A stretch of 64,000 bases of DNA, taken from NCBI RefSeq assembly GCF_003478035.1, contig NZ_QUEP01000011.1, positions 43,339 to 107,338 of the forward strand. Direction: 5' to 3'. Below the pieces are notes generated by a model that saw only the letters and a program-made list of their open reading frames with translations, did not search any database and was not told where the DNA came from. Shown in pieces: positions 8,566 to 43,349 of the stretch (position 1 is the first letter of the stretch; every line of letters starts with the position of its first letter). The position numbers were made by a program, and so were the translations under genes. Origin of the DNA: Clostridium sp. OF03-18AA (lineage in GTDB: Bacteria > Bacillota > Clostridia > Lachnospirales > Lachnospiraceae).

Positions 8566-8868
8566 ATGACAATAGACTTAAAACACATAACCGTAGCCTT
8601 TGATTACACAAGCGGAGACATCGCAGATATTAAAAGGTGTCTGGAATGCTTATACCAGACGGCAGAGGGAACGTGTCCGCTCGACCGGGAATTCGGTCTG
8701 AATACGGACTTTGTAGGAATGCCGATGGATGTGGCAAAGAGCCAGTTCGCAGTGGAGATCATCGACAAGACGGACCGGTACGAGCCAAGGGCAACAGTAA
8801 AAGATATCAACTTCTCATTCAATGAGGATGGGCAGTTGCAGGCGGAGGTGGTAATAACAAATGTCTGA
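8566..8868 (+). CDS. Phage baseplate wedge protein W (gp25-like)
   Basis: 100 residues from the ATG at 8566, preceded by AGGGAGGG; upstream in-frame starts would overlap gene U. Contains the gp25/gpW-type segment C-P-L-D-R-E-F-G-L-x-x-D, the conserved core of baseplate wedge subunits that trigger sheath contraction. Its end overlaps the J gene by 8 bp, as usual for W-J pairs. Confidence 0.85.
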   Translation: MTIDLKHITVAFDYTSGDIADIKRCLECLYQTAEGTCPLDREFGLNTDFVGMPMDVAKSQFAVEIIDKTDRYEPRATVKDINFSFNEDGQLQAEVVITNV

Positions 8869-10015
8869 TACAATCCAAAGCGTAAAAGACCTCCCAGAGG
8901 TGTCGTTTATTGACAATGACACACTGGAAGCAATGAAAACAAGAATGGTGGCAAACTTTGAGAGCGAATGGAAGCGCATCACAGGACAGGAGATAACACT
9001 CTCTCCTTCAGATCCGAACCGCATCATGCTATATGCCATCGCACTGGAATTATACCAGGACGAACAGTACATAGACAGAGCCGGAAAGCAGGACTTAATC
9101 AAATACTCCTACGGAGAATTCCTCGACAACCTCGGAGCAGGTAGGGGAGTAACTAGAAAGCAGCCGGCCCCTGCGGAAACAACGCTGAGGTTCACTCTTT
9201 CAGAGAAGCGGCCTGCTGCCGTAGGCATACCGGAAGGAACAAAGGTCACGGACGGCAACCTCAACTACTTCGCCACGGTAGGATACGAGGAAATCCCCGC
9301 AGGGGAAACCTATGTAGATGTGAGAGCACTCTGCACCGAGAACGGAGTGGACGGAAATGAACTGCTGCCGGGACAGGTCAATGTACTGGTTGATCTGATA
9401 CCGTATGTGGAGAGCGTAAACAACACGACCAAGACAAGCGGTGGGGCAGACCTCGAATCAGACGAGAGCCTTGCAGAGAGGATATTCCTCGCACCAAGCG
9501 GATACAGTGTCGCAGGACCGGACGATGCATACAAATACTGGACAAAGACCTACAGCCAGACCATCGGAGATGTAAAGGTAACCAGTCCGAACCCGGTAGA
9601 GGTAGAAATCCGTTTCATTATGACGGACGGAGAACTCCCGACCAAGACTGTCATAGACGGAGTGGCAGCATACCTGCAGGATGAAAACATCCGCCCGCTT
9701 ACCGACAAGGTAACCGTGCTCGCACCGGAGACGGTCAAATTCAACATTGCATTCACATACTATGTAAATTTGAGCGACCAGTCCAAGGCAGGAACGATAC
9801 AGGCGGAGGTGGCACAGGCGGTGACTGACTACATCGAATGGCAGACCAGAACCATCGGCAGAGATATCAACCCTTCAGAACTCATGAAACGGATTGTGGC
9901 AGCCGGAGCAAAGAGGGCGGAGATAACCTCCCCGGTATTTACGACCGTGCCGGATACCAGTGTCGCAAGGATAGGAACGCAGACCGTGACATACGGAGGT
10001 GTTGAGAATGATTAG
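8861..10015 (+). CDS. Phage baseplate assembly protein J
   Basis: 384 residues, a full-length baseplate J protein: N-terminal F-x-x-x-(T/R)-G-x-x-(L/I)-x-P-x-D-P-x-R-x-x-x-Y segment near residues 45-65, central G-G-A-D-L-E-S-D-E-S-L motif near 195 and A-G-P-D-D-A-Y-K-Y-W near 215, all hallmarks of the family. The product joins W and I in the baseplate wedge. Confidence 0.92.
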   Translation: MSDTIQSVKDLPEVSFIDNDTLEAMKTRMVANFESEWKRITGQEITLSPSDPNRIMLYAIALELYQDEQYIDRAGKQDLIKYSYGEFLDNLGAGRGVTRKQPAPAETTLRFTLSEKRPAAVGIPEGTKVTDGNLNYFATVGYEEIPAGETYVDVRALCTENGVDGNELLPGQVNVLVDLIPYVESVNNTTKTSGGADLESDESLAERIFLAPSGYSVAGPDDAYKYWTKTYSQTIGDVKVTSPNPVEVEIRFIMTDGELPTKTVIDGVAAYLQDENIRPLTDKVTVLAPETVKFNIAFTYYVNLSDQSKAGTIQAEVAQAVTDYIEWQTRTIGRDINPSELMKRIVAAGAKRAEITSPVFTTVPDTSVARIGTQTVTYGGVEND

Positions 10016-10916
10016 TTTATATGACGGACAGATCACAGACCTCCTGCCGTGGAAGATAGCACAGAGCACTGAGGTGCGCTGCATATCCTACGCAGTGCAG
10101 CAGGAACACCAAAGGATGCTCCGACTGGCAGCGCATACCAGAACTATGGCAGTCATTGATGAACTGCCGGAGCGGATACTGGATGTACTGGCGGTGGAAT
10201 TAAGGACACCATACTACCAGGAGAGCATGAATCTGGAAACCAAACGCAACATCATAAAGAGGACGCTCCTGTGGCACACCAAGGCAGGAACTCCGAGTGC
10301 GGTATCAGAACTGATAGAGATTGTATTCGGGGAAGGCAGGACAGAGGAATGGTTCGATTACACCGAGGGTCCATACACACCCGGAACATTCGACATCATA
10401 ACCAATGCCAGAATGACAGAGGAAATGGCAAATTACTTCCTCTCCATCATTCAGAGAGTAAAGAACACCCGCTCCCATATCCGCAGGATACTGGTGGAGC
10501 GAGAAATGGAGATGCATGAGACAGTGGCATCCGTGGTGGTCAGCAGTCCGAAAGAACAGGTGCTGAACCACCACCAGACCACAAATGATTACACCATGCA
10601 GGAGACGGCTGCATCAGCCGTAACCTCCGCACCGTCCAGAACGGTAACAAACCACCCGGAAGGACGCACCGGAGATATCGGCATGGAAGGGAACGCTGCC
10701 GCAGGTGCAGTAAGTTCCCCTCATGAGACTATCGGGAATAATGTTACCCCACGCACAGGCACGCTGTTGGGCGGTGTGAGCGGTTTTGCAGCGATAGTGG
10801 TAAGAAACACCAAGACCACAATTCTAAACGGAGCACAGCGAACACAGGCAAGCGTACACGGCACTGTGCCGAGGATGGCAGTGGGAATGGCATCACATTC
10901 CAAAATAACAACATAA
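10008..10916 (+). CDS. Phage tail protein I with repeat-bearing C-terminal extension
   Basis: 302 residues from the ATG at 10008, placed by GGAGGTG upstream; it overlaps J by 8 bp. Residues 1-165 resemble P2 gpI (L-L-P near the start, W-H-x-K-A-G-T-P in the middle). P2 gpI is about 176 residues. Here residues from about 170 on add four imperfect 28-30-residue repeats, each with an (E/G)-x-x-A-x-x-V-x-S-x-P-like core and a V-x-N-H or I-x-N-N turn. The extension may be a fibre attachment stalk; that role is inference. Confidence 0.82.
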   Translation: MISLYDGQITDLLPWKIAQSTEVRCISYAVQQEHQRMLRLAAHTRTMAVIDELPERILDVLAVELRTPYYQESMNLETKRNIIKRTLLWHTKAGTPSAVSELIEIVFGEGRTEEWFDYTEGPYTPGTFDIITNARMTEEMANYFLSIIQRVKNTRSHIRRILVEREMEMHETVASVVVSSPKEQVLNHHQTTNDYTMQETAASAVTSAPSRTVTNHPEGRTGDIGMEGNAAAGAVSSPHETIGNNVTPRTGTLLGGVSGFAAIVVRNTKTTILNGAQRTQASVHGTVPRMAVGMASHSKITT

Positions 10917-10929
10917 AGGAGGAACAACG

Positions 10930-11481
10930 ATGGCAGGAGTATTCAAAGAAGCAGTGCTGACAGCCAAAGGAATCGCCCTGCTCGCCAAGGCACAGGCAGG
11001 AAGATGCACAATCAAACTGACCAAGGCCGCAACCGGAGACGGATCATATTCAGATGGCGAAGCACTCACAAACAGAACTGCTCTCAAATCCAAGAAGCAG
11101 GAGTTCGCACTGATTACAGTGACGACCCAGAACCAGTCCAATGTATATGTGAAATTTATCATCACAAACAAGCAGGACACCGGAAACCTTAAGAATGGCT
11201 ACTACGTGAAAGAGGTCGGCATTTATGCACAGGACCCGGACGAGGGGGAAATCCTCTACGCACTGGCAGTCGGAGTTGCAAACCAGTGGGATTATATGCC
11301 CGCTTACAACGACCTCCTCCCGTCCACGATTACCATGGACTTCTTAACCGAGGTCGCCAACGCAACAGATGTAACTATCGTAACACCAAACAGTATGTAC
11401 CTTTACGACCAGACCACTGGGGATAAGTATGTGCTTGGTGTGGATAAAGGACTTTTATACTACGAGGAGGTAGAGGAATAA
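10930..11481 (+). CDS. Phage tail fibre protein, N-terminal collar type
   Basis: 183 residues, similar to the N-terminal tail-collar domain of P2 gpH-like fibres: A-x-L-T-x-x-G-x-A-L-L-A-K-A near the start and N-G-Y-Y-V-K-E-V-G-I-Y-A in the middle, a pattern shared with fibre bases that attach to the baseplate. The protein stops after this domain, so the receptor-binding part is probably supplied by the next gene, which starts on the last base of this one (TAATG). GGAGGAACA is the ribosome site. Confidence 0.8.
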   Translation: MAGVFKEAVLTAKGIALLAKAQAGRCTIKLTKAATGDGSYSDGEALTNRTALKSKKQEFALITVTTQNQSNVYVKFIITNKQDTGNLKNGYYVKEVGIYAQDPDEGEILYALAVGVANQWDYMPAYNDLLPSTITMDFLTEVANATDVTIVTPNSMYLYDQTTGDKYVLGVDKGLLYYEEVEE

Positions 11482-12758
11482 TGGGAAAGACATACATCGC
11501 AGACAAGGAAACCCTCGACAAGTGCTATGCGATTTTATCCGCAGACGGAATCTATGGCTTTATTGAGCACATGGATGTTTTAAGTCCGACAGCACGAATC
11601 GAATACATCGGACAGAACAAAGACTTCACTCCGATTTCACTCAACAAGGACACCGGAACAATGACACTCAACAGTTGGGCGGACTTCCCGATCATCGTGG
11701 CAAATAAGCCGTGGATGGTAAGGGCAGACGGAACACCGGACTACAGACTGGATGAGAACGACTACACCAAGAAAGAGGACGGTACTGCTTCGGATGTTTC
11801 CAACACAAGCTACAACGGCGGAGCGTTCTCATGGCTTGCCAAGATTTACAAGCAGGAGTATATGCTCGGCAATGATCGTGTCGTTAAATTCTCCATGAGG
11901 GAAAGAGACGGATTCGAGCCTGTCGGATTTAAAGACCCGAGCAACAATGTACTGGAGGGTGTATGGATTCCGATGTTTTACGGTTCAATCCTCGGAGCAG
12001 ATACCTCCACACCAAAGATGGTGTCTCTGGCAGGATTGCAGCCTTGCTACAATAACACCACGGACAAAGAGCATACGGCAATCGCAAACTTCTCAAGCCG
12101 TGCAGCATTCCTCGGTGGCGGAATCGTTCAGACAATCACTGACCTTCTGATCATGTTCGCAAAGAGCACGAACTCACAGGAAGCATACGGCTATGGAAAT
12201 TCAAGCGGATACGATGCGAGCCTTGCGCCGACCAACGGAGTGAAACAGAACGCAGTCGTAGGTGGCGGACAGTTCTACGGAACAAAGGATGCGAAGTCAC
12301 TCAACAAGATCTTCCACTCCATCGTCCTTGGAACATATCAGCAGTGGATGCGTGACCCGTACACATTGCTCGTGAATGGCAGATACAAGGTCAGCAAGAA
12401 CTACACCTACGATGTGACCGGAGCAAAATACCAGGATACAGGCATCAGCCTTCCGAAGATGCTTAACGATGACGGAAGCACCCAGAAAACAGGTATTTTC
12501 TATCCGCATAAGTACCAGACCGTTCCCGGCTTCGGAGCAGTTCCGGTTCATCCGTGCAAGGGAAGCACATCCACTGGCGGCTGTGACGGATTATGGCAGA
12601 ATGTCGAGATTGTGGCGGTCGCCCTTCGGTTCGGTCCTTGCAACAACGGTACGAATGCTGGTATGCGCTACTTGGATGTGAACAACGCTGCCGGGGCTGC
12701 CTACTGGGGCCTCGGGGCCGCCGTCCTTCTTTTACCACCTGTCGGGGTCGCAGCGTAA
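11481..12758 (+). CDS. DGR target protein, C-type-lectin-like receptor binder
   Basis: 425 residues. The last 36 residues before the tail (379-414) are encoded by the variable repeat and include the DGR lectin signature L-R-F-G, N-N-G, R-Y-L, V-N-N and W-x-x-G-A-A. In target proteins of phage DGRs these residues line the ligand-binding face of a C-type lectin fold at the tail fibre tip. Compared with TR, eight residues have changed at adenine codons: N to P, D to A, N to D, T to A, N to A, N to Y, N to G and I to L. Residues 1-370 are phage-specific and probably anchor the protein to the preceding fibre. No signal peptide or membrane segment is present. It forms a transcription unit with TR and RT. 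Confidence 0.92.
   Translation: MGKTYIADKETLDKCYAILSADGIYGFIEHMDVLSPTARIEYIGQNKDFTPISLNKDTGTMTLNSWADFPIIVANKPWMVRADGTPDYRLDENDYTKKEDGTASDVSNTSYNGGAFSWLAKIYKQEYMLGNDRVVKFSMRERDGFEPVGFKDPSNNVLEGVWIPMFYGSILGADTSTPKMVSLAGLQPCYNNTTDKEHTAIANFSSRAAFLGGGIVQTITDLLIMFAKSTNSQEAYGYGNSSGYDASLAPTNGVKQNAVVGGGQFYGTKDAKSLNKIFHSIVLGTYQQWMRDPYTLLVNGRYKVSKNYTYDVTGAKYQDTGISLPKMLNDDGSTQKTGIFYPHKYQTVPGFGAVPVHPCKGSTSTGGCDGLWQNVEIVAVALRFGPCNNGTNAGMRYLDVNNAAGAAYWGLGAAVLLLPPVGVAA
12614..12722 (+). repeat. DGR variable repeat (VR)
   Basis: 109-bp segment at the 3' end of the target gene that aligns without gaps to TR 263 bp downstream. Twelve positions differ; at eleven the TR base is adenine. The last 10 bases are G/C only and identical in both copies, which fits the initiation-of-mutagenic-homing end. 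Confidence 0.95.
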
Positions 12759-12782
12759 GCAAGACACCGTGATAGGGGGTCT

Positions 12783-12809
12783 GGGGGTCTGCGTCAGCAG
12801 AATTCCCCC
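12783..12809 (+). other. Hairpin downstream of VR
   Basis: GGGGG (12783-12787) can pair with CCCCC (12805-12809), and CTGC with GCAG inside it around a GTCA tetraloop. A GC-rich hairpin with a small G-A loop just past VR is needed for target recognition in the Bordetella phage DGR, though there it sits only a few bases from VR and here about 60 bp away. The role is therefore tentative. Confidence 0.45.
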
Positions 12810-12876
12810 AGTGGAACAAAATCGGATTTTAATAGCGTAAGGAAGAATAACAGGGGCGCAGGACTGCGTCACCTCG

Positions 12877-12985
12877 GGCGGTCGCCCTTCGGTTCGGTAA
12901 TTGCAACAACGGTACGAATGATGGTTTGCGCTACTTGAATGTGAACAACACTGCCGGGAATGCCAACTGGAACATCGGGGCCGCC
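12877..12985 (+). repeat. DGR template repeat (TR)
   Basis: Non-coding, invariant donor copy between the target gene and the reverse transcriptase. Read in the VR frame it is rich in AAC/AAT codons (N-C-N-N-G, Y-L-N-V-N-N, N-A-N-W-N), the classic design that lets adenine mutagenesis reach many amino acids without creating stop codons. The transcribed TR is expected to be copied into cDNA by the neighbouring enzyme with errors at adenines and then to replace VR. Confidence 0.95.
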
Positions 12986-13179
12986 TTATTCTATCTTAAA
13001 CGGAATAACAACCCAAAGCAGTCCTGCTTCCTACACCGCTGACCTTTGAAACAAGGTTTACTCACCATTACTGGGAAGATGAGTGGAAATGAGTCCGACA
13101 CAGGACGCACGGTAAAGCGGTCGCACCTGCCGTGCGTAGGAGATAGAAGAAAAAATATCTTATAGGAGTACTCAGCAGA
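12986..13179 (+). ncRNA. DGR spacer RNA between TR and RT (candidate structured region)
   Basis: No open reading frame of note. The stretch has a stable stem, ACGCACGG (13105-13112) with CCGTGCGT (13130-13137). In the studied Bordetella DGR the RNA between TR and RT primes and templates cDNA synthesis, so a structured spacer here is expected. Function is inferred from position. An AGGAG site at 13164-13168 serves the RT start. Confidence 0.5.
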
Positions 13180-14403
13180 ATGCGAAAAACACACACAGAA
13201 ATCCATCTGCGTAATGAACCGGAACACGGTCACAAAGAGTACAAATATCTGTATCAACAAATGCTGAAGGATGATGTCATTCGGAAAGCATATAAGAAAT
13301 TACGCAAAGGAAAAACCAAGAGAAAAGAGATTCAGTACATAGACGCACACCTCGATGATGAGGTGCAGAAAATGTACGACATGATCCTAAACACAAAGCC
13401 GGAGGGAGTGGACGTCCCACACCCGGAACTGGCATACAAACCAAAGAAAAGAACCCCGAAGATCATCTTCGAACATGGGAAAAGGCGAAAAATTTATATG
13501 CCGGAAATCCATGAACAATGGCTGCACCACATCATCGTTCTAGTATTAGAGCCAATCATCACAGCCACAGCCTATCCATACTCCTGCGGTTCGTTCCCAA
13601 AGCGTGGAGCACACTACGGAAAGAGACAGATAGAGCGGTGGCTTTTGCATGACCAAAAGGGAACACGGTGCTTCGCAAAGATGGATATCCGGCACTTTTA
13701 TGATAGTATCCGGCTGAAAATTCTGATGAGGGAACTGGCAATCCGAATCAAGGATGACTGGTTTTTATACATCATCGGATTATGCCTACAGGGATTTAAT
13801 AAAGGAATCCCTCTCGGATTTTACATCAGCCAGTGGTTGGCAAATTACCTCTTAGAACCACTCGACCGATTGATTACAGAGGTGCTCGGTCTGCCAAAGC
13901 TGCAAAGGTACATGGACGATATCGTCATATTCGCAAGCAGCAAGAAAGTCCTCCAGAGAGCCATCGTGGAGATAAGGAAGATGCTCGGTCAGCGTTTCAG
14001 ATTAAAGCTGAAGCACAACTACCAGGTATGCAAATTCTACTACGAGAAGGGCAAGCGGAAGATAGGTAGGGCACTGGACTTCATGGGTTTTATATTTTAC
14101 AGAAACAAGACGCTGATCAGAAAGAACATCATGCTATCCGCAACACGGTTGGCAAAGAAGATGGAGAGGTCAAAGGAAGCAAACCGTGGATACTTTCACA
14201 GACACATCGAAGCCATGCTGTCGTACATGGGATGGTTTACCTGCACGGACACATACGACTGTTACCAGAGCAGGATAAAACCTTATATCCATGTGGGCCG
14301 GCTTAAGAAAATAATATCAAAAATCAAAAGGAGGCAGAACCATGAAGGAATGGACCAAGGAAAGATGCTCCGAGGAGCCGCAGGAGCTGCAGCTTGTGGC
14401 TGA
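13180..14403 (+). CDS. DGR reverse transcriptase
   Basis: 407 residues, group II intron-related retron/DGR type. Motif A F-A-K-M-D-I-R-H-F-Y has the first catalytic Asp at 169, and the Y-M-D-D box at residues 244-247 supplies the other two. The segment L-G-F-Y-I-S-Q (212-218) matches the LGxxxSQ variant that marks DGR enzymes; group II and retron enzymes have QGxxxSP there. This variant is linked to low fidelity at template adenines. No maturase, endonuclease or accessory domain is attached. No Avd-like gene lies between target and RT. Confidence 0.94.
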   Translation: MRKTHTEIHLRNEPEHGHKEYKYLYQQMLKDDVIRKAYKKLRKGKTKRKEIQYIDAHLDDEVQKMYDMILNTKPEGVDVPHPELAYKPKKRTPKIIFEHGKRRKIYMPEIHEQWLHHIIVLVLEPIITATAYPYSCGSFPKRGAHYGKRQIERWLLHDQKGTRCFAKMDIRHFYDSIRLKILMRELAIRIKDDWFLYIIGLCLQGFNKGIPLGFYISQWLANYLLEPLDRLITEVLGLPKLQRYMDDIVIFASSKKVLQRAIVEIRKMLGQRFRLKLKHNYQVCKFYYEKGKRKIGRALDFMGFIFYRNKTLIRKNIMLSATRLAKKMERSKEANRGYFHRHIEAMLSYMGWFTCTDTYDCYQSRIKPYIHVGRLKKIISKIKRRQNHEGMDQGKMLRGAAGAAACG

Positions 14404-14605
14404 CGGCATCTACATCCAGAGAAAGAACATCGAGAGAGTGCAGCACGAAGCAACCGAGGGTATGGAAGCCTACGCCGACTGGGAGTGCGATAGCAGGGAA
14501 ATCACTGTATCGGAATACCAGATGTTGGAATCCATCAAGCAGATCAACACCGACAAGGCGATTGATGATTACACCGCACAGCTTATCGAGGAGGGATTGT
14601 TATAA
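14342..14605 (+). CDS. Small phage protein of unknown function downstream of RT
   Basis: 87 acidic residues. The start is well supported by AAGGAGGCAGAACC before the ATG, although the gene begins 62 bp before the RT stop. No known domain is recognised. Similar-sized proteins precede XkdX-like genes in many Firmicute tail modules, so a tail or fibre-assembly role is possible. It is not Avd-like: it is acidic and lacks the basic four-helix pattern. Confidence 0.7.
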   Translation: MKEWTKERCSEEPQELQLVADGIYIQRKNIERVQHEATEGMEAYADWECDSREITVSEYQMLESIKQINTDKAIDDYTAQLIEEGLL

Positions 14606-14760
14606 TGAGACTATTAATCGACAGTCTGAAAAGACTTTATGCCGCAGGCAGGCTGACAAAGGAACAGATCGCAGCCAGAGTGGAGAAGGGAACTATTGAT
14701 GAAGCAGAGTACGAGGAAATCACAGGCGAGAAGTACAAGGCAGAAACCAAGGCAAAATAA
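14605..14760 (+). CDS. XkdX-like small phage protein
   Basis: 51 residues, missed by length cut-offs. The sequence L-K-R-L-Y-x-A-G-R-L-T-K-E-Q-(I/L) and later G-x-I-x-x-x-E-Y-x-x-I-T-G fits the XkdX family, tiny proteins coded just before lysis genes in B. subtilis PBSX-like phages; the function is unknown. Its ATG shares a base with the previous stop (TAATG), so translation is coupled. Confidence 0.8.
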   Translation: MRLLIDSLKRLYAAGRLTKEQIAARVEKGTIDEAEYEEITGEKYKAETKAK

Positions 14761-14923
14761 CTTCCAATGTACCCACGCACATGGGAGCAGGTACTGCCAT
14801 AAGCACATGAAAGAATGTGACCTCGACTGCAAGGAAAGCGGCACCTGTGCCCACTGCACAAATTACCACATACCGATGACGCAGTACCCATGCAAGCGGT
14901 GTGAGAAATTAAATCAGAATTAA
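14699..14923 (+). CDS. Cysteine-rich small protein, possible
   Basis: 74 residues read in another frame from within the XkdX-like gene and continuing 163 bp beyond it. The last 50 residues hold eight Cys and several His (C-T-H-A-H, Y-C-H-K-H, C-D-L-D-C, C-A-H-C, C-K-R-C), a pattern that suggests zinc binding and argues against a chance frame. The start is uncertain because no good ribosome site is visible; expression might depend on coupling to the upstream gene. Confidence 0.5.
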   Translation: MKQSTRKSQARSTRQKPRQNNFQCTHAHGSRYCHKHMKECDLDCKESGTCAHCTNYHIPMTQYPCKRCEKLNQN

Positions 14924-14950
14924 GGACCGTCCGGACAGGGCGGTCCTTTT
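14924..14950 (+). terminator. Hairpin terminator between small tail genes and lysis genes
   Basis: GGACCG (14924-14929) pairs with CGGTCC (14941-14946) followed by TTTT. The short T run suggests partial read-through into the lysis genes. Confidence 0.55.
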
Positions 14951-14968
14951 AGAGAGGAGGTGCAGCGC

Positions 14969-15322
14969 ATGGATGTGACAGCAATCATCGTGGCAGCGAG
15001 TATCCCATCGGCACTGACTGGCTTCTTTTTCTGGCTCATCGAGCAGAGTATACAGAAGCGTGCCGACAAGGAAAAAGCAGAGCGGGAAGAACGGCAGAAG
15101 GAAGTAGATGCCAGAGAGCAGATCCGAGAGAAGAATGAACTCTGCATCATCAACTGCGTCAATGCTTCCCTGGCACTCGGAGAAGCGACAGCCAGAGCGG
15201 TGCAGAGAATCCCGGACGCACACTGCAATGGGGATATGCACGCAGCACTCGACTACGCTCAGAAAGTCAAGCATGAGCAGAAGGACTTTTTGAACGAACA
15301 GGCACTTAAACAAATTGTATAA
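14969..15322 (+). CDS. Small membrane-anchored phage protein, lysis region
   Basis: 117 residues from the ATG at 14969, which is 8 bases after GAGGAGG; the in-frame GTG upstream lies inside that site. One N-terminal membrane helix (I-I-V-A-A-S-I-P-S-A-L-T-G-F-F-F-W-L-I) is followed by a highly charged, E/R/K-rich coiled coil. This shape occurs in phage proteins beside holins. It could be a holin partner or spanin-like factor; the exact role is unknown. Confidence 0.7.
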   Translation: MDVTAIIVAASIPSALTGFFFWLIEQSIQKRADKEKAEREERQKEVDAREQIREKNELCIINCVNASLALGEATARAVQRIPDAHCNGDMHAALDYAQKVKHEQKDFLNEQALKQIV

Positions 15323-15337
15323 CAGGAGGACAAAGCA

Positions 15338-15562
15338 ATGAAGAAAATCGACTGGGTAAGAAAACTCACAAGCAGAAAACTGTGGACGGCAGTGGCATCA
15401 TTTGTCTCAATGATGATCCTCGCCACAGGCGGAACAGATAACACGGCAACGCAGGTAACTGCACTGATTATGGCAGGAGCGTCCGTGGTGGCTTACATCA
15501 TCGGGGAAGGCTTGACCGACTCCGCCAACATCGGTGCTTCGGATGATACCGAGGAACAGTAA
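15338..15562 (+). CDS. Phage holin
   Basis: 74 residues with a basic N-terminus (K-K-I-D-W-V-R-K-L-T-S-R-K-L-W) and two short hydrophobic helices (about 18-32 and 40-56), ending in an acidic tail. This is the common small holin of Firmicute phages, which permeabilises the membrane to release endolysin. AGGAGG precedes it and the endolysin gene follows. Confidence 0.82.
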   Translation: MKKIDWVRKLTSRKLWTAVASFVSMMILATGGTDNTATQVTALIMAGASVVAYIIGEGLTDSANIGASDDTEEQ

Positions 15563-15578
15563 CAGGAAACATACGCAA

Positions 15579-15610
15579 CAGGGCGGCCAGTAGGCTGCCC
15601 TGTTTTATTA
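15579..15610 (+). terminator. Hairpin between holin and endolysin
   Basis: CAGGGCGGCC (15579-15588) pairs with GGCTGCCCTG (15593-15602) and is followed by TTTTATTA. It may reduce endolysin transcription relative to holin. Confidence 0.6.
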
Positions 15611-15630
15611 CAGAAAGTGAGGAAACAGAT

Positions 15631-16674
15631 ATGGCAATCAAAGGTATGGACATTTCATGTTGGCAGGGCAATGTAGACTTTGCCAGAGTAGCAGCAGGCG
15701 GCATCAAGTTCGCAATCCTCCGTGAAGGATACGCACAGACGGTAGACGCAAAGTTCCGCCAGTATGTGGATGGCTGCAGAAAGAATGGCATCGAGATCAA
15801 GGGAGTATATCATTTCAGTTATGCACTCAACGCAGAACAGGCAGCGCAGGAGGCGGCATTCTGCATCAAGCAGATGGAACAGGCAGGTCTCGGAAAAGAT
15901 GTGATCGTATTCTACGATTTTGAGTACGACACCGTAAAGAAAGCCAAGGCAAAGGGAGTGACCCTCGGAAAGAATGAGTGCATCGCATTCACAAAGGCAT
16001 TCTGTGAGTACGTGGAAAGCCACGGATACAAGGCAGGTGTTTATTCCAACATCGACTACCACAGAAATATGTATTCGGACGAAGTGCTCTCCAAGTATGT
16101 GTACTGGCTCGCAGATTACACAGGATCTCCGGACTATGACTGCGCATTCCACCAGTACACCAGTTCCGGAACAGTAAGCGGCATCGATGGCAAGGTAGAT
16201 ATGGACTACTACTACGGAGAGGAAACCAAAGAGAACCAGGGCGAGAAGAAATCCGTCACTGAGGTGGCAAAGGAAGTGCTCGCAGGAGACTGGGGAAACG
16301 GAGATGACCGCAAGAATAGACTGGCTGCTGCCGGATATGACTACGCAACGGTGCAGGCAGAAGTGAACCGCCTTGCAGGAGTAACCTCCGCACCGAAAAA
16401 GAGCGTGGCAGAAATCGCCAAGGAAGTCATTGCAGGACAGTGGGGAAATGGCGATGACAGAAAGAACCGCATCAAGGCAGCAGGATATGACTACGATGCA
16501 GTCCAGAAAGAGGTCAATGCACAGCTTGGAGTAAAACCGCAGAAAAGCTTTACTGAGGTAGCCAAGGAAGTGATCGCAGGTAAGTGGGGCAACGGCGAAA
16601 CCAGAAAGCAGAAGCTGAGGGCAGCCGGATACGACTACGCAGCCGTGCAGAAGAAGGTCAATGAACTTCTGTAA
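15631..16674 (+). CDS. Endolysin: GH25 muramidase with three Cpl-7 repeats
   Basis: 347 residues. Residues 1-200 are a glycoside hydrolase family 25 domain that cuts the N-acetylmuramic acid to N-acetylglucosamine bond of peptidoglycan; the catalytic pair is D96 and E98 in F-Y-D-F-E. Three Cpl-7 wall-binding repeats follow (about 208-248, 258-298 and 306-347), each with A-K-E-V-(L/I)-A-G-x-W-G-N-G and A-A-G-Y-D-Y. Cpl-7 repeats bind cell wall independent of choline. No signal peptide, so it relies on the holin. Confidence 0.95.
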   Translation: MAIKGMDISCWQGNVDFARVAAGGIKFAILREGYAQTVDAKFRQYVDGCRKNGIEIKGVYHFSYALNAEQAAQEAAFCIKQMEQAGLGKDVIVFYDFEYDTVKKAKAKGVTLGKNECIAFTKAFCEYVESHGYKAGVYSNIDYHRNMYSDEVLSKYVYWLADYTGSPDYDCAFHQYTSSGTVSGIDGKVDMDYYYGEETKENQGEKKSVTEVAKEVLAGDWGNGDDRKNRLAAAGYDYATVQAEVNRLAGVTSAPKKSVAEIAKEVIAGQWGNGDDRKNRIKAAGYDYDAVQKEVNAQLGVKPQKSFTEVAKEVIAGKWGNGETRKQKLRAAGYDYAAVQKKVNELL

Positions 16675-18629: not shown

Positions 18630-19829
18630 TTTGTTGGTATCTTATCCTTATTTATAAGTGTTTTGTTATTGAAATTTATAACTTTAACACCGATAATAGT
18701 AGAAAGAGACAAGGAGGTGCTGCCATGCGCAGATTTAAACAGTTATCCAGAGCCGACAGGCTGAAATTAGAAGCACTGCTGAAAGCAGGACACGGCAAAC
18801 AGGAAATCGCTGACCAGATAGGAGTCCATGTCAGCACCATATACCGTGAGATAAAGAGAGGAACATACACACATACCAATTCAGATCTGACAGAGGAAGA
18901 ACGGTACTCCCCAGACATCGCAGAGGATAAGTATCAACAGAACCTGCGAGATAAGGGTCCAGACCTTAAGATAGGCAAAGACCACAGACTGGCAGAGTAC
19001 ATAGAAACAAAGATAGCAGAGGACGGATACTCGCCCGGAGCAGTCCTCGGAGAAATTAAAGCCAAGGGGTTGGAGTTTGAAACAGAGATTAGCAAGCCGA
19101 CCCTTTACAGTTACATCGACAAGGGGATATTCCTCACAATCACAAATAAGGAACTCCCAGTAAAAGGCAGACGGAAAAAGAAGAATAAGAAAGTCCGCAG
19201 GCAGGCGAGAGCCAACGCAGGTACAAGCATAGAGAAGCGGCCAGAGGACATCGACACCAGAGAGGAATTCGGACACTGGGAGATGGACACAGTGGTAGGC
19301 AAGAGAGGGGAAAGTAAACACAGCCTTCTGGTACTGACAGAGAGAAAGACCAGGAACGAACTCATATACCTTTTATATGAGCACACGACTGAGCAGGTCT
19401 GCAAGCGACTGGACCAGTTAGAAGCGGAATGGGGAGAGCGATTCGGGCAGGTGTTCAAGACCATAACCGTGGACAATGGCTCGGAGTTCGCTGACTGGGA
19501 GGGAATGCAGCAGTCGGCGGCAGATGAGTCCGAAAAGAGAGTGACCGTGTTCTACTGCCACCCATACTGCTCCTTTGAGCGTGGCAGCAACGAAAACCAG
19601 AACCGACTGGTGCGAAGGAAGATACCGAAGGGAGAGAACTTCGATGACCGGACAGAGGACGATATCCAGATGGTAGAGGACTGGATCAACGACTACCCAA
19701 GGGAGATGTTCGGATGGAAAACCTCCGGCGAACTGTTCCAGGAAGAACTGGCGAGACTGGCATAAAAAGAGTAGAATAAGCAGAGAGCAAAACGAAAAGA
19801 GGGGTAGTCTGTGCAAATTTACCAACAAA
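18630..19829 (+). mobile_element. IS30-family element or transposase module
   Basis: The transposase gene is flanked by an inverted 10-bp repeat, TTTGTTGGTA at 18630-18639 and its complement at 19820-19829, giving about 1.2 kb, a normal IS30-family length. The repeat is shorter than typical IS30 ends and a third copy exists at 18164-18173, so these may not be the true ends. No target duplication could be identified by eye. Confidence 0.45.
18725..19765 (+). CDS. IS30-family transposase
   Basis: 346 residues, apparently intact. An N-terminal HTH (residues about 1-45, with K-Q-E-I-A-D-Q-I-G-V-H-V-S-T-I-Y-R-E-I-K-R) binds the element ends. The catalytic triad fits IS30: D in H-W-E-M-D-T-V-V-G, D in T-V-D-N-G-S-E-F and E in F-E-R-G-S-N-E-N-Q-N, followed by R-K-I-P-K-G. 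It is divergent from the PL2 small genes. It may be a passenger IS at the prophage edge or the recombinase of the element itself. Confidence 0.93.
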   Translation: MRRFKQLSRADRLKLEALLKAGHGKQEIADQIGVHVSTIYREIKRGTYTHTNSDLTEEERYSPDIAEDKYQQNLRDKGPDLKIGKDHRLAEYIETKIAEDGYSPGAVLGEIKAKGLEFETEISKPTLYSYIDKGIFLTITNKELPVKGRRKKKNKKVRRQARANAGTSIEKRPEDIDTREEFGHWEMDTVVGKRGESKHSLLVLTERKTRNELIYLLYEHTTEQVCKRLDQLEAEWGERFGQVFKTITVDNGSEFADWEGMQQSAADESEKRVTVFYCHPYCSFERGSNENQNRLVRRKIPKGENFDDRTEDDIQMVEDWINDYPREMFGWKTSGELFQEELARLA

Positions 19830-19958: not shown

Positions 19959-19975
19959 ATGTCTCGTTGATGCAT

Positions 19976-20047
19976 TGGGCTATCGCCAAATGGTAAGGCA
20001 ACGGACTCTGACTCCGTCATTTTCAAGGTTCGAATCCTTGTAGCCCA
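19976..20047 (+). tRNA. tRNA-Gln (CTG), copy 1
   Basis: 72 nt with a complete cloverleaf: acceptor TGGGCTA/TAGCCCA, D arm GCC...GGC, anticodon stem ACGGA/TCCGT with loop CTCTGAC giving anticodon CTG, and T loop TTCGAAT. CCA is not encoded (CCC-A is part of the stem). Reads CAG codons. Confidence 0.93.
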
Positions 20048-20091
20048 GTTTATAAACTAAATATTGTCAAAGTGCTTTAAGCACATATTAT

Positions 20092-20163
20092 TGGGCTATC
20101 GCCAAATGGTAAGGCAACGGACTCTGACTCCGTCATTTTCAAGGTTCGAATCCTTGTAGCCCA
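20092..20163 (+). tRNA. tRNA-Gln (CTG), copy 2
   Basis: Identical in all 72 positions to the copy 44 bp upstream and probably in the same transcript. The spacer and downstream sequence differ, so the duplication is limited to the gene and a few leading bases. Confidence 0.93.
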
Positions 20164-20274
20164 GCTGATAAAAGGCTGTTAATCTTTGTGAATGCAAGGC
20201 TTAATGGTCTTTTTTGTTACTGTACACCTTTTTCTTGCGCTTGACATCCATTTGTGTTAATGTAAAGGCGAAGC

Positions 20275-29977: not shown

Positions 29978-30206
29978 GCTGTGACATGATAGCGTAGAAG
30001 CGAGAGGTTGCTGCCTGAGAATGGCAGGTGTTCCGTGGAGCGAATGTCAAGTTAGGAAACTGGCGACAAGTCACTGTACCAAATTAACAGCTGCTCAGGG
30101 TAAGGGGCAGTAACAACGTGTGAATCGGCATGATACACACGAGACCGTGTACAGTCACCGCTTGTCGTACTTCGATTAAAAGTGCGAAAAGGAGGCGACT
30201 TTTTTT
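29978..30206 (+). promoter_or_regulatory. Structured leader of the S10 operon
   Basis: A hairpin CTGCC/GGCAG lies near 30011-30027. A long domain is closed by GCGACAAG (30063-30070) with CTTGTCG (30161-30167) and ACTGTAC (30073-30079) with GTACAGT (30149-30155); inside are CTGC/GCAG and GTGT/ACAC hairpins. Leaders of this kind often bind a product of the operon. Which protein acts here is unknown, and the E. coli L4 leader is not recognisably conserved. Confidence 0.65.
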
Positions 30207-43300: not shown

Positions 43301-43349
43301 TATCTTTGAGGACGGGCAGAAAAAAGTTGAAGAAAACCAGCAAAAATGC

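Follow-up and report, generated by a model that had tools for sequence, protein, structure and literature searches.

The stretch of DNA considered here (the window, 64,000 nucleotides of contig NZ_QUEP01000011.1 of Clostridium sp. OF03-18AA, positions 43,339 to 107,338) carries, within a prophage, a diversity-generating retroelement (DGR) whose parts follow one another on the forward strand, as do the hairpin and the genes for the tail-collar fibre and XkdX given below. These are a target gene for a 425-residue tail protein (11481..12758), a variable repeat (VR; 12614..12722) at the 3' end of that open reading frame (ORF), an intergenic template repeat (TR; 12877..12985), a structured spacer RNA (13032..13148), a reverse transcriptase (RT; 13180..14403) and an 87-residue protein, here called Q (14342..14605), whose start overlaps the end of the RT by 62 nucleotides (nt). 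The two repeats are of 109 nt each, offset by 263 nt and aligned without gaps, which confirms the coordinates of the target-VR-TR-RT layout in a first-pass annotation of this DNA. They differ at 12 of the 109 sites, 11 of these being TR adenines and the remaining one a T to A change at 12663; with adenines making up 25 of the 109 TR bases, this bias has a hypergeometric P of 1.2e-7, and the near-exclusive placement of the differences at TR adenines claimed in that annotation is thus borne out. All 12 differences fall in codon positions 1 or 2. Similarity between the repeats ends downstream of GCCGCC in both copies, and the GC-rich terminus of the VR, TCGGGGCCGCC, is the expected place of the initiation of mutagenic homing (IMH) site. 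The RT matches PF00078 and PHROG 1423 (E 3.7e-92), a known DGR family also matched by the RT of Bordetella phage BPP-1, and its ORF contains both of the motifs that had been annotated, YMDD and, as LGFYISQ, the LGxxxSQ pattern which we take to be a mark of DGR-type RTs.

The behavior of such repeats in nature can be read from the relatives of the RT, comprising the best 80 of 184 viral loci and 52 genome loci (132 in all). The same repeat finder recovered an A-biased repeat pair in 114 of the 132 loci, the other 18 giving none, and TR adenines account for 75% or more of the repeat differences in 113 of these 114 pairs. Twenty-four pairs of relative loci have identical TRs, upstream DNA at least 99% identical and different VRs (72 locus pairs have near-identical TRs when identical copies are counted in). 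Across 12 disjoint pairs with identical TRs, some of which share a phage group and are hence not fully independent, 164 of 325 TR-adenine sites differ; among the remaining VR positions 9 of 1067 do, and in the upstream DNA about 8 of 7049. The condition by which the first-pass annotation could have been refuted, applied to relatives, thus came out in favor of a DGR, with adenine sites dominating the variation, and the same holds for P0001, the closest target homologue listed. Over 425 residues this protein and the target are 96% identical, with 14 of the 16 differences inside the 37 VR residues and 2 in the remaining 388; 11 of the 14 affect codons with a TR adenine, of which there are 15. The DGR lineage turns over its VR at strain level, as seen in the loci of these relatives. 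The cluster that P0001 represents has 20,016 member sequences, the largest among the 120 matches listed, and its members may be variants, differing in the VR, of a phage common in the gut. Another homologue, P0005 (383 residues), runs from the body of the target into the TR of the window DGR and the sequence behind it, probably through assembly collapse across the 109-nt repeats and possibly through a real deletion.

A rival view, on which the two repeats arose by ordinary duplication or the DGR is dead, is very improbable, for the single difference at a non-adenine site that might favor it is set against the adenine-specific differences between the repeats, the comparison with P0001, the variation among relative loci and an RT frame that is open with its YMDD intact. 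The cassette is a genuine DGR, of a known kind of system, belonging to a lineage that varies in nature.

The interval between TR and RT is occupied by a full-length match to the RT-4 structured RNA (Rfam RF03025; 13032..13148; E 4.4e-25), which begins 46 nt past the TR and scores 127.8 bits, above the threshold of 73.5 bits. A fold of the window pairs TTCTATC (12989..12995), 4 nt after the last TR base, with GATAGAA (13142-13148), the last bases of RT-4, and these may be seen as the two halves of a helix closing the RNA. Among 50 distinct near loci, CTATC near the TR end is accompanied by GATAGAAG downstream in 36, and the full TTCTATC is present in 25, while CTATC at the VR end was found in none of the 50. 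The divergence of TR and VR right after the repeat can thus be understood, since the half of the proposed closing helix follows the TR only. In 34 distant loci, 7.29 bases match within a locus as against 5.94 between loci (permutation p 5e-5); several of the 34 show no helix complementarity. The helix is lacking in L054. Judging from these sequences, a long-range helix likely ties the end of the TR to the RNA core. The predicted structure of the spacer (36 sequences) has 28 pairs, in 16 of which both partners have changed; such doubly changed cells number 148 as against 46.4 (standard deviation 6.1) in shuffles, and 97.0% of the cells are paired, as against 29.5–44.4% after sliding. RT-4 was found in 8 of 9 phage records, the exception being BPP-1, in which the spacer recruits RT-Avd and primes the cDNA, as set out in the relevant part of PMC12875486. 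A partial survey of the literature, with the original description of RT-4 outside it, found none linking RT-4 (RF03025) to DGRs, and no novelty is claimed. Repeat patterns at two loci with another RNA of this series, RT-18, suggest tandem TR copies at a spacing of 147 (L065:3110-3226) and more than one VR or TR (L111:5085-5478).

Several observations weigh against this reading of the repeats and the spacer. The VR difference at 12663 is not at an adenine; it is probably a private point mutation, because P0001 carries the TR residue there. Three of the 14 VR differences of P0001 (residues 382, 395 and 398) lie outside the adenine codons; residue 382 is R in P0001, P0002, P0004, P0006 and P0007 and L in the window and the TR, a pattern that would fit a replaced tract ending at differing points. 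As for the RNA, an Rfam scan of 25 relatives found RT-4 in 11 (including Faecalibacterium phage FP_Epona, hereafter Epona), RT-18 in 7 and RT-17 in one, so that 8 of 25 carry another RT-n RNA and 6 of 25 have no Rfam match; the fold of the single spacer sequence is mildly stable (z -1.86).

A further structured element, a GC-rich hairpin (12781..12811) with a CTGGGGG / CCCCCAG stem and an inner stem-loop, follows the stop codon of the target gene, and the DNA fold of 12700-12830 has a z of -3.24. When the target-to-TR interval was surveyed in 70 loci (35 distinct stem-loops), the best stem was GGGGG/CCCCC in 64, with another stem outscoring it in L017, L047, L053, L054, L057 and L102; its outer pairs covary (CT/AG, CC/GG, TT/AA and GT/AC). 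The window has no T run after the hairpin, and an intrinsic terminator is therefore unlikely. Published phage DGR hairpins, as characterized in the pertinent part of PMC3240598, have stems of 7-10 bp and 4-nt GRNA loops and lie 4-34 bp from the VR; the hairpin of the window has a 7-bp outer stem, but it lies 58 nt past the VR and bears a longer, elaborated loop.

The target gene abuts the gene for a tail-collar fibre N-terminal protein (10930..11481; PF12571, E 4.9e-10), and the profile of PHROG 5302 ('tail protein', E 2.6e-93 with the target) is split over the two, its positions 2-135 falling in the upstream gene and 128-546 in the target. Upstream of the target are Baseplate_J, Tail_P2_I, Phage_tail_fib and a tail sheath; sheath, Baseplate_J and Tail_P2_I make the tail a contractile, P2-like one, and together with the A-biased repeats and the DGR-type RT they uphold the assignment of the DGR to a contractile-tail prophage. 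The structure model of the target resembles solved DGR variable proteins, and the C-type lectin fold that had been proposed for its C-terminus is thus supported as a prediction. A search of PDB sequences with the target profile returned three rows at E <= 1, the best a dehydrogenase (0.009), which were judged to be chance.

The DGR had been called complete, which stands as far as target, VR, TR and RT are all present; it needs qualifying for the Avd gene, which in BPP-1 lies by the RT and is absent beside that of the window. Avd is required in BPP-1, according to the portion of PMC12875486 concerned with it. A home-made Avd profile, which found the BPP-1 control, had no match in the window and matched only L128 and L131 among 133 relative loci; bAvd (PF22296) matched BPP-1 and none of 11 relative virus records, some of which are perhaps fragments. 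PF05635 was dropped as a test for Avd, having missed the BPP-1 control, and a hidden Avd among the other ORFs around TR and RT was rejected, these having no Pfam match above cut-off besides XkdX. Elsewhere in the host genomes, bAvd was above cut-off in 12 of 39 searched; among hosts with an RT-4-type locus it was so in 7 of 17, with another 7 of the 17 showing no match at E <= 1. Help from Avd in trans is thus possible for some hosts, since their genomes encode bAvd elsewhere.

Genomes with relatives of the RT are commonest among Lachnospiraceae and other Clostridia, with Gastranaerophilales, Enterococcus and Termititenax farther out. In a tree of 93 RTs (thinned from 260 at 72%), the window RT stands next to that of Epona (support 98/83). 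The 25 rows with Avd form one side of a branch (support 99/94), 56 of the 57 rows with Q are found opposite them, L324 being a long stray, and 11 rows have neither. The same opposition appears in a larger set of 274 RT loci, which comprises 134 relatives of the window RT (set A, the window and Epona included), 67 of the BPP-1 RT, 3 of an Avd-type Lachnospiraceae RT and 70 of an Enterococcus RT (set D). Q was found at 168 of these (126 in set A and 42 of the 70 in set D, which was nearly all unseen by a Q profile trained on set A), Avd at 69 and both together at none; 23 well-flanked loci have neither, one is without an RT call and the remainder are cut off on one side. Because the Avd rows occupy one side of a single branch, this exclusion is one old split.

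Q itself matches PHROG 20201 (function unassigned) and is followed by the gene for the XkdX tail protein (14605..14760; TIGR01669, PF09693). The median start of Q relative to the RT end is -37 nt in set A and +2 in set D, and a median ratio of nonsynonymous to synonymous substitution rates (dN/dS) of 0.25 (99 pairs with dS < 1, the first 22 aligned codons excluded) indicates purifying selection. PHROG 20201 is strong in 3 of 200 Lachnospiraceae genomes, all with the window RT lineage and all already among the RT relatives (two further matches there, E 0.007-0.009, were judged to be chance), and in 4 of 391 Clostridia, with an RT immediately upstream in all four; PHROG 18126 was found in 1 of 398 genomes of the class of Enterococcus, namely the centre genome itself. 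Seven records of the phage collection match the Q family, each with a related RT, and a search of viral contigs with Q itself gave one locus. The 200 genomes hold five RTs of the window lineage, four of them with Q (one weak, E 1.5e-5) and one, at G089, with none recognised.

The structure model of Q, of modest confidence (predicted local distance difference test score 78.2, predicted template-modelling score 0.52), has beta structure and a C-terminal helix; the fold of Avd is a helical bundle. The model had no match in the PDB at E <= 0.001 (best E 0.88) and two in BFVD at that level, where proteins of the crAss-like phages cr55_1 and cr50_1 came near Q at 0.0079 and 0.045. These two proteins, equated with gp060 and gp043 by length only, both overlap the RT end; profile comparison of Q with them was weak (E 0.0027 and 0.0073, probability 11% and 5%), and with proteins of crAssphage LMMB and Lactobacillus LBR48 it was negative. 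As weak structural neighbors, the cr55_1 and cr50_1 proteins are a hint that Q might extend beyond Firmicutes. Loci with neither Avd nor Q often have another small ORF at the RT end, and two further families, of about 100 and about 142 residues, overlap that end in DGRs without Avd or a recognisable Q (L303, L305-L307, L309-L311; L312-L317, L320, L322). A different 87-residue ORF follows the fibre gene at L361:12509-12769, in a relative whose baseplate protein is similar and whose stretch gave no RT match.

Q tracks the RT lineage of the window and neither DGRs generally nor XkdX; thus, either role, that of an RT partner or that of a tail protein specific to the lineage, would fit. We consider the chances about even that Q is a tail protein or fibre chaperone, co-inherited with the DGR lineage and its targets, at the position ahead of XkdX which we take to be that named XkdW. 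Q does lie inside the tail operon ahead of XkdX, which a strict rule, missing some cases, places within 400 nt after it at 77 of the 168 loci with Q; of the 42 Q genes in set D only 2 had a recognisable XkdX behind them (with 3 cut off), yet Q remains at the RT end. Among 14 XkdX loci in the 200 Lachnospiraceae genomes, 10 lack Q, and a different small ORF precedes XkdX where one is seen; some of these ORFs share a C-terminal DIxYIAMMTDVEL with the Q of L368 and L080, although the Q profile misses them and Q for its part has no Pfam match at E <= 1e-3. RT matches occur in 7 of the 10 Q-less stretches. At L366, L369 and L374 there are TR/VR-like repeat pairs, with 9 of 9, 13 of 13 and 13 of 15 differences at adenines, and here the RT sits past XkdX while the small ORF keeps with the tail. 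The repeats at these loci are about 1.1 kb apart, the order being target, small ORF, XkdX, TR and RT, and no match to Q or Avd was found within the 3.1-kb stretch. They are apparently DGRs of another lineage and order, and they tip Q slightly toward a tail function. Against that function, both RT and Q accompany the target at 16 of 20 newly numbered loci, and at the remaining 4 the sequence stops less than 500 nt from the match. A query with Tail_P2_I found no relative, and one with Baseplate_J found 7 loci, none with a match to RT, Q, XkdX or Avd, which is a weak control as the flanks are often short.

The other function, which is less probable but a serious possibility, is that of an accessory to the RT in the place of Avd, translationally coupled to the RT, binding it and the spacer RNA, and aiding the priming or placement of the cDNA. 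This would be consistent with the mutual exclusion of Q and Avd over the 274 loci, although that is one old event on the RT tree, and with the confinement of PHROG 20201 to this or a related RT throughout the Lachnospiraceae, the Clostridia and the phage collection, although the window-lineage RT at G089 has no recognised Q. The four of the 14 XkdX loci with Q are exactly those in which an RT of the window lineage precedes XkdX, whereas DGRs of another lineage occur in the same tail setting without it. Q likewise starts near the RT end and is kept by purifying selection, but 23 well-flanked loci have neither protein, the beta-plus-helix model is unlike the bundle of Avd, and bAvd elsewhere in 7 of the 17 RT-4-type hosts could act in trans. 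A DGR-linked protein without Pfam or CDD matches had moreover been proposed earlier (reference 12 of PMC10053308, as far as its citing text conveys); it may be Q, and no priority is claimed for the latter.

Beyond the lysis genes of the prophage lies an IS30-family transposase (window 18725-19765), and between the prophage side and the host genes are two tRNA-Gln (CTG) genes (19975-20049 and 20092-20165), 42 nt apart, whose region is possibly the attachment region. An S10-Clostridia ribosomal protein leader lies at 29987-30069, by which the host most likely belongs to the Clostridia.

Taken together, it is very probable that the cassette is the DGR of a lineage of phages that have no Avd next to the RT and that it works along the following lines. 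The RT would copy a transcript spanning the TR and the RT-4 spacer, with errors opposite adenines; the cDNA would then replace the VR at the 3' end of the target gene, from the GC-rich end inwards, with the hairpin behind the gene aiding the replacement. About 15 residues would thereby be diversified at the tip of the protein, which is predicted to be C-type-lectin-like and probably attaches to the surface of the host, and such variation might retarget the phage to other receptors, as the first-pass annotation had envisaged. Priming from the spacer, the parts given to the IMH and the hairpin, and the binding of receptors are what we infer by analogy with BPP-1. A broader picture may tentatively be drawn, although we find it rather unlikely, in which phage DGRs form two ancient branches, one with Avd and the other with a beta-plus-helix Q, whose gene starts from the RT gene's end, and a spacer of the RT-4, RT-17 or RT-18 type closed onto the TR end by a long-range helix, those Rfam families being the cores of TR-RNAs in DGRs lacking Avd and Q the accessory.

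Taken alone, the cassette is one more DGR of a gut phage, and its value is comparative, chiefly for the machinery of DGRs without Avd. The nearest named phage is Epona (Eponavirus; MG711462, NC_047910), published in 2018 as a myovirus with a DGR, for which the part of the report concerned gives no Avd homologue (PMC5883640). It shares with the window the order of Baseplate_J, Tail_P2_I, tail-collar fibre, MTD-like target, RT, small RT-end-overlapping protein and XkdX, as well as the RT-4 RNA and the absence of a bAvd match, with RTs 72% identical over residues 19-373; it differs in infecting Faecalibacterium and in that megablast matched 20% of 8861-16674, at 70.8%. The first-pass annotation had regarded the P2-like tail as unusual for a DGR, and this falls away: such a combination is not new, because Epona shows both, the same tail order and a DGR without Avd. 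Cornuault et al., in that part of their report, left the functioning of the Avd-less DGR open and guessed at another small protein (PMC5883640); Q and the structured spacer RNA are now concrete candidates for such machinery, and the two-plasmid BPP-1 DGR assay in E. coli, as outlined in part of PMC12875486, has already been built.

BPP-1 parallels the window in its target with a VR, its TR and an RT of the same PHROG, and its adenine-specific mutagenesis, structured spacer and hairpin behind the VR are described in the corresponding parts of PMC3240598 and PMC12875486. The window hairpin recalls the hairpin/cruciform of BPP-1, the loop and the distance from the VR being different. Unlike the window, BPP-1 has Avd and is without RT-4, and no Q was seen at the sampled relatives of its RT. 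The DGR of crAssphage LMMB, which PMC7290462, in the part dealing with it, places in RT lineage 3 following Wu et al., resembles that of the window in its target-VR-TR-RT order, the lack of Avd and a small hypothetical protein after the RT, which has no likeness to Q. Finally, relative to Rfam RF03025 itself, which is matched over its full length, the RNA of the window is set in a DGR and extended by the proposed closing helix; if this part of the picture is true, it would give a role to Rfam families that have so far been named RT-n only.

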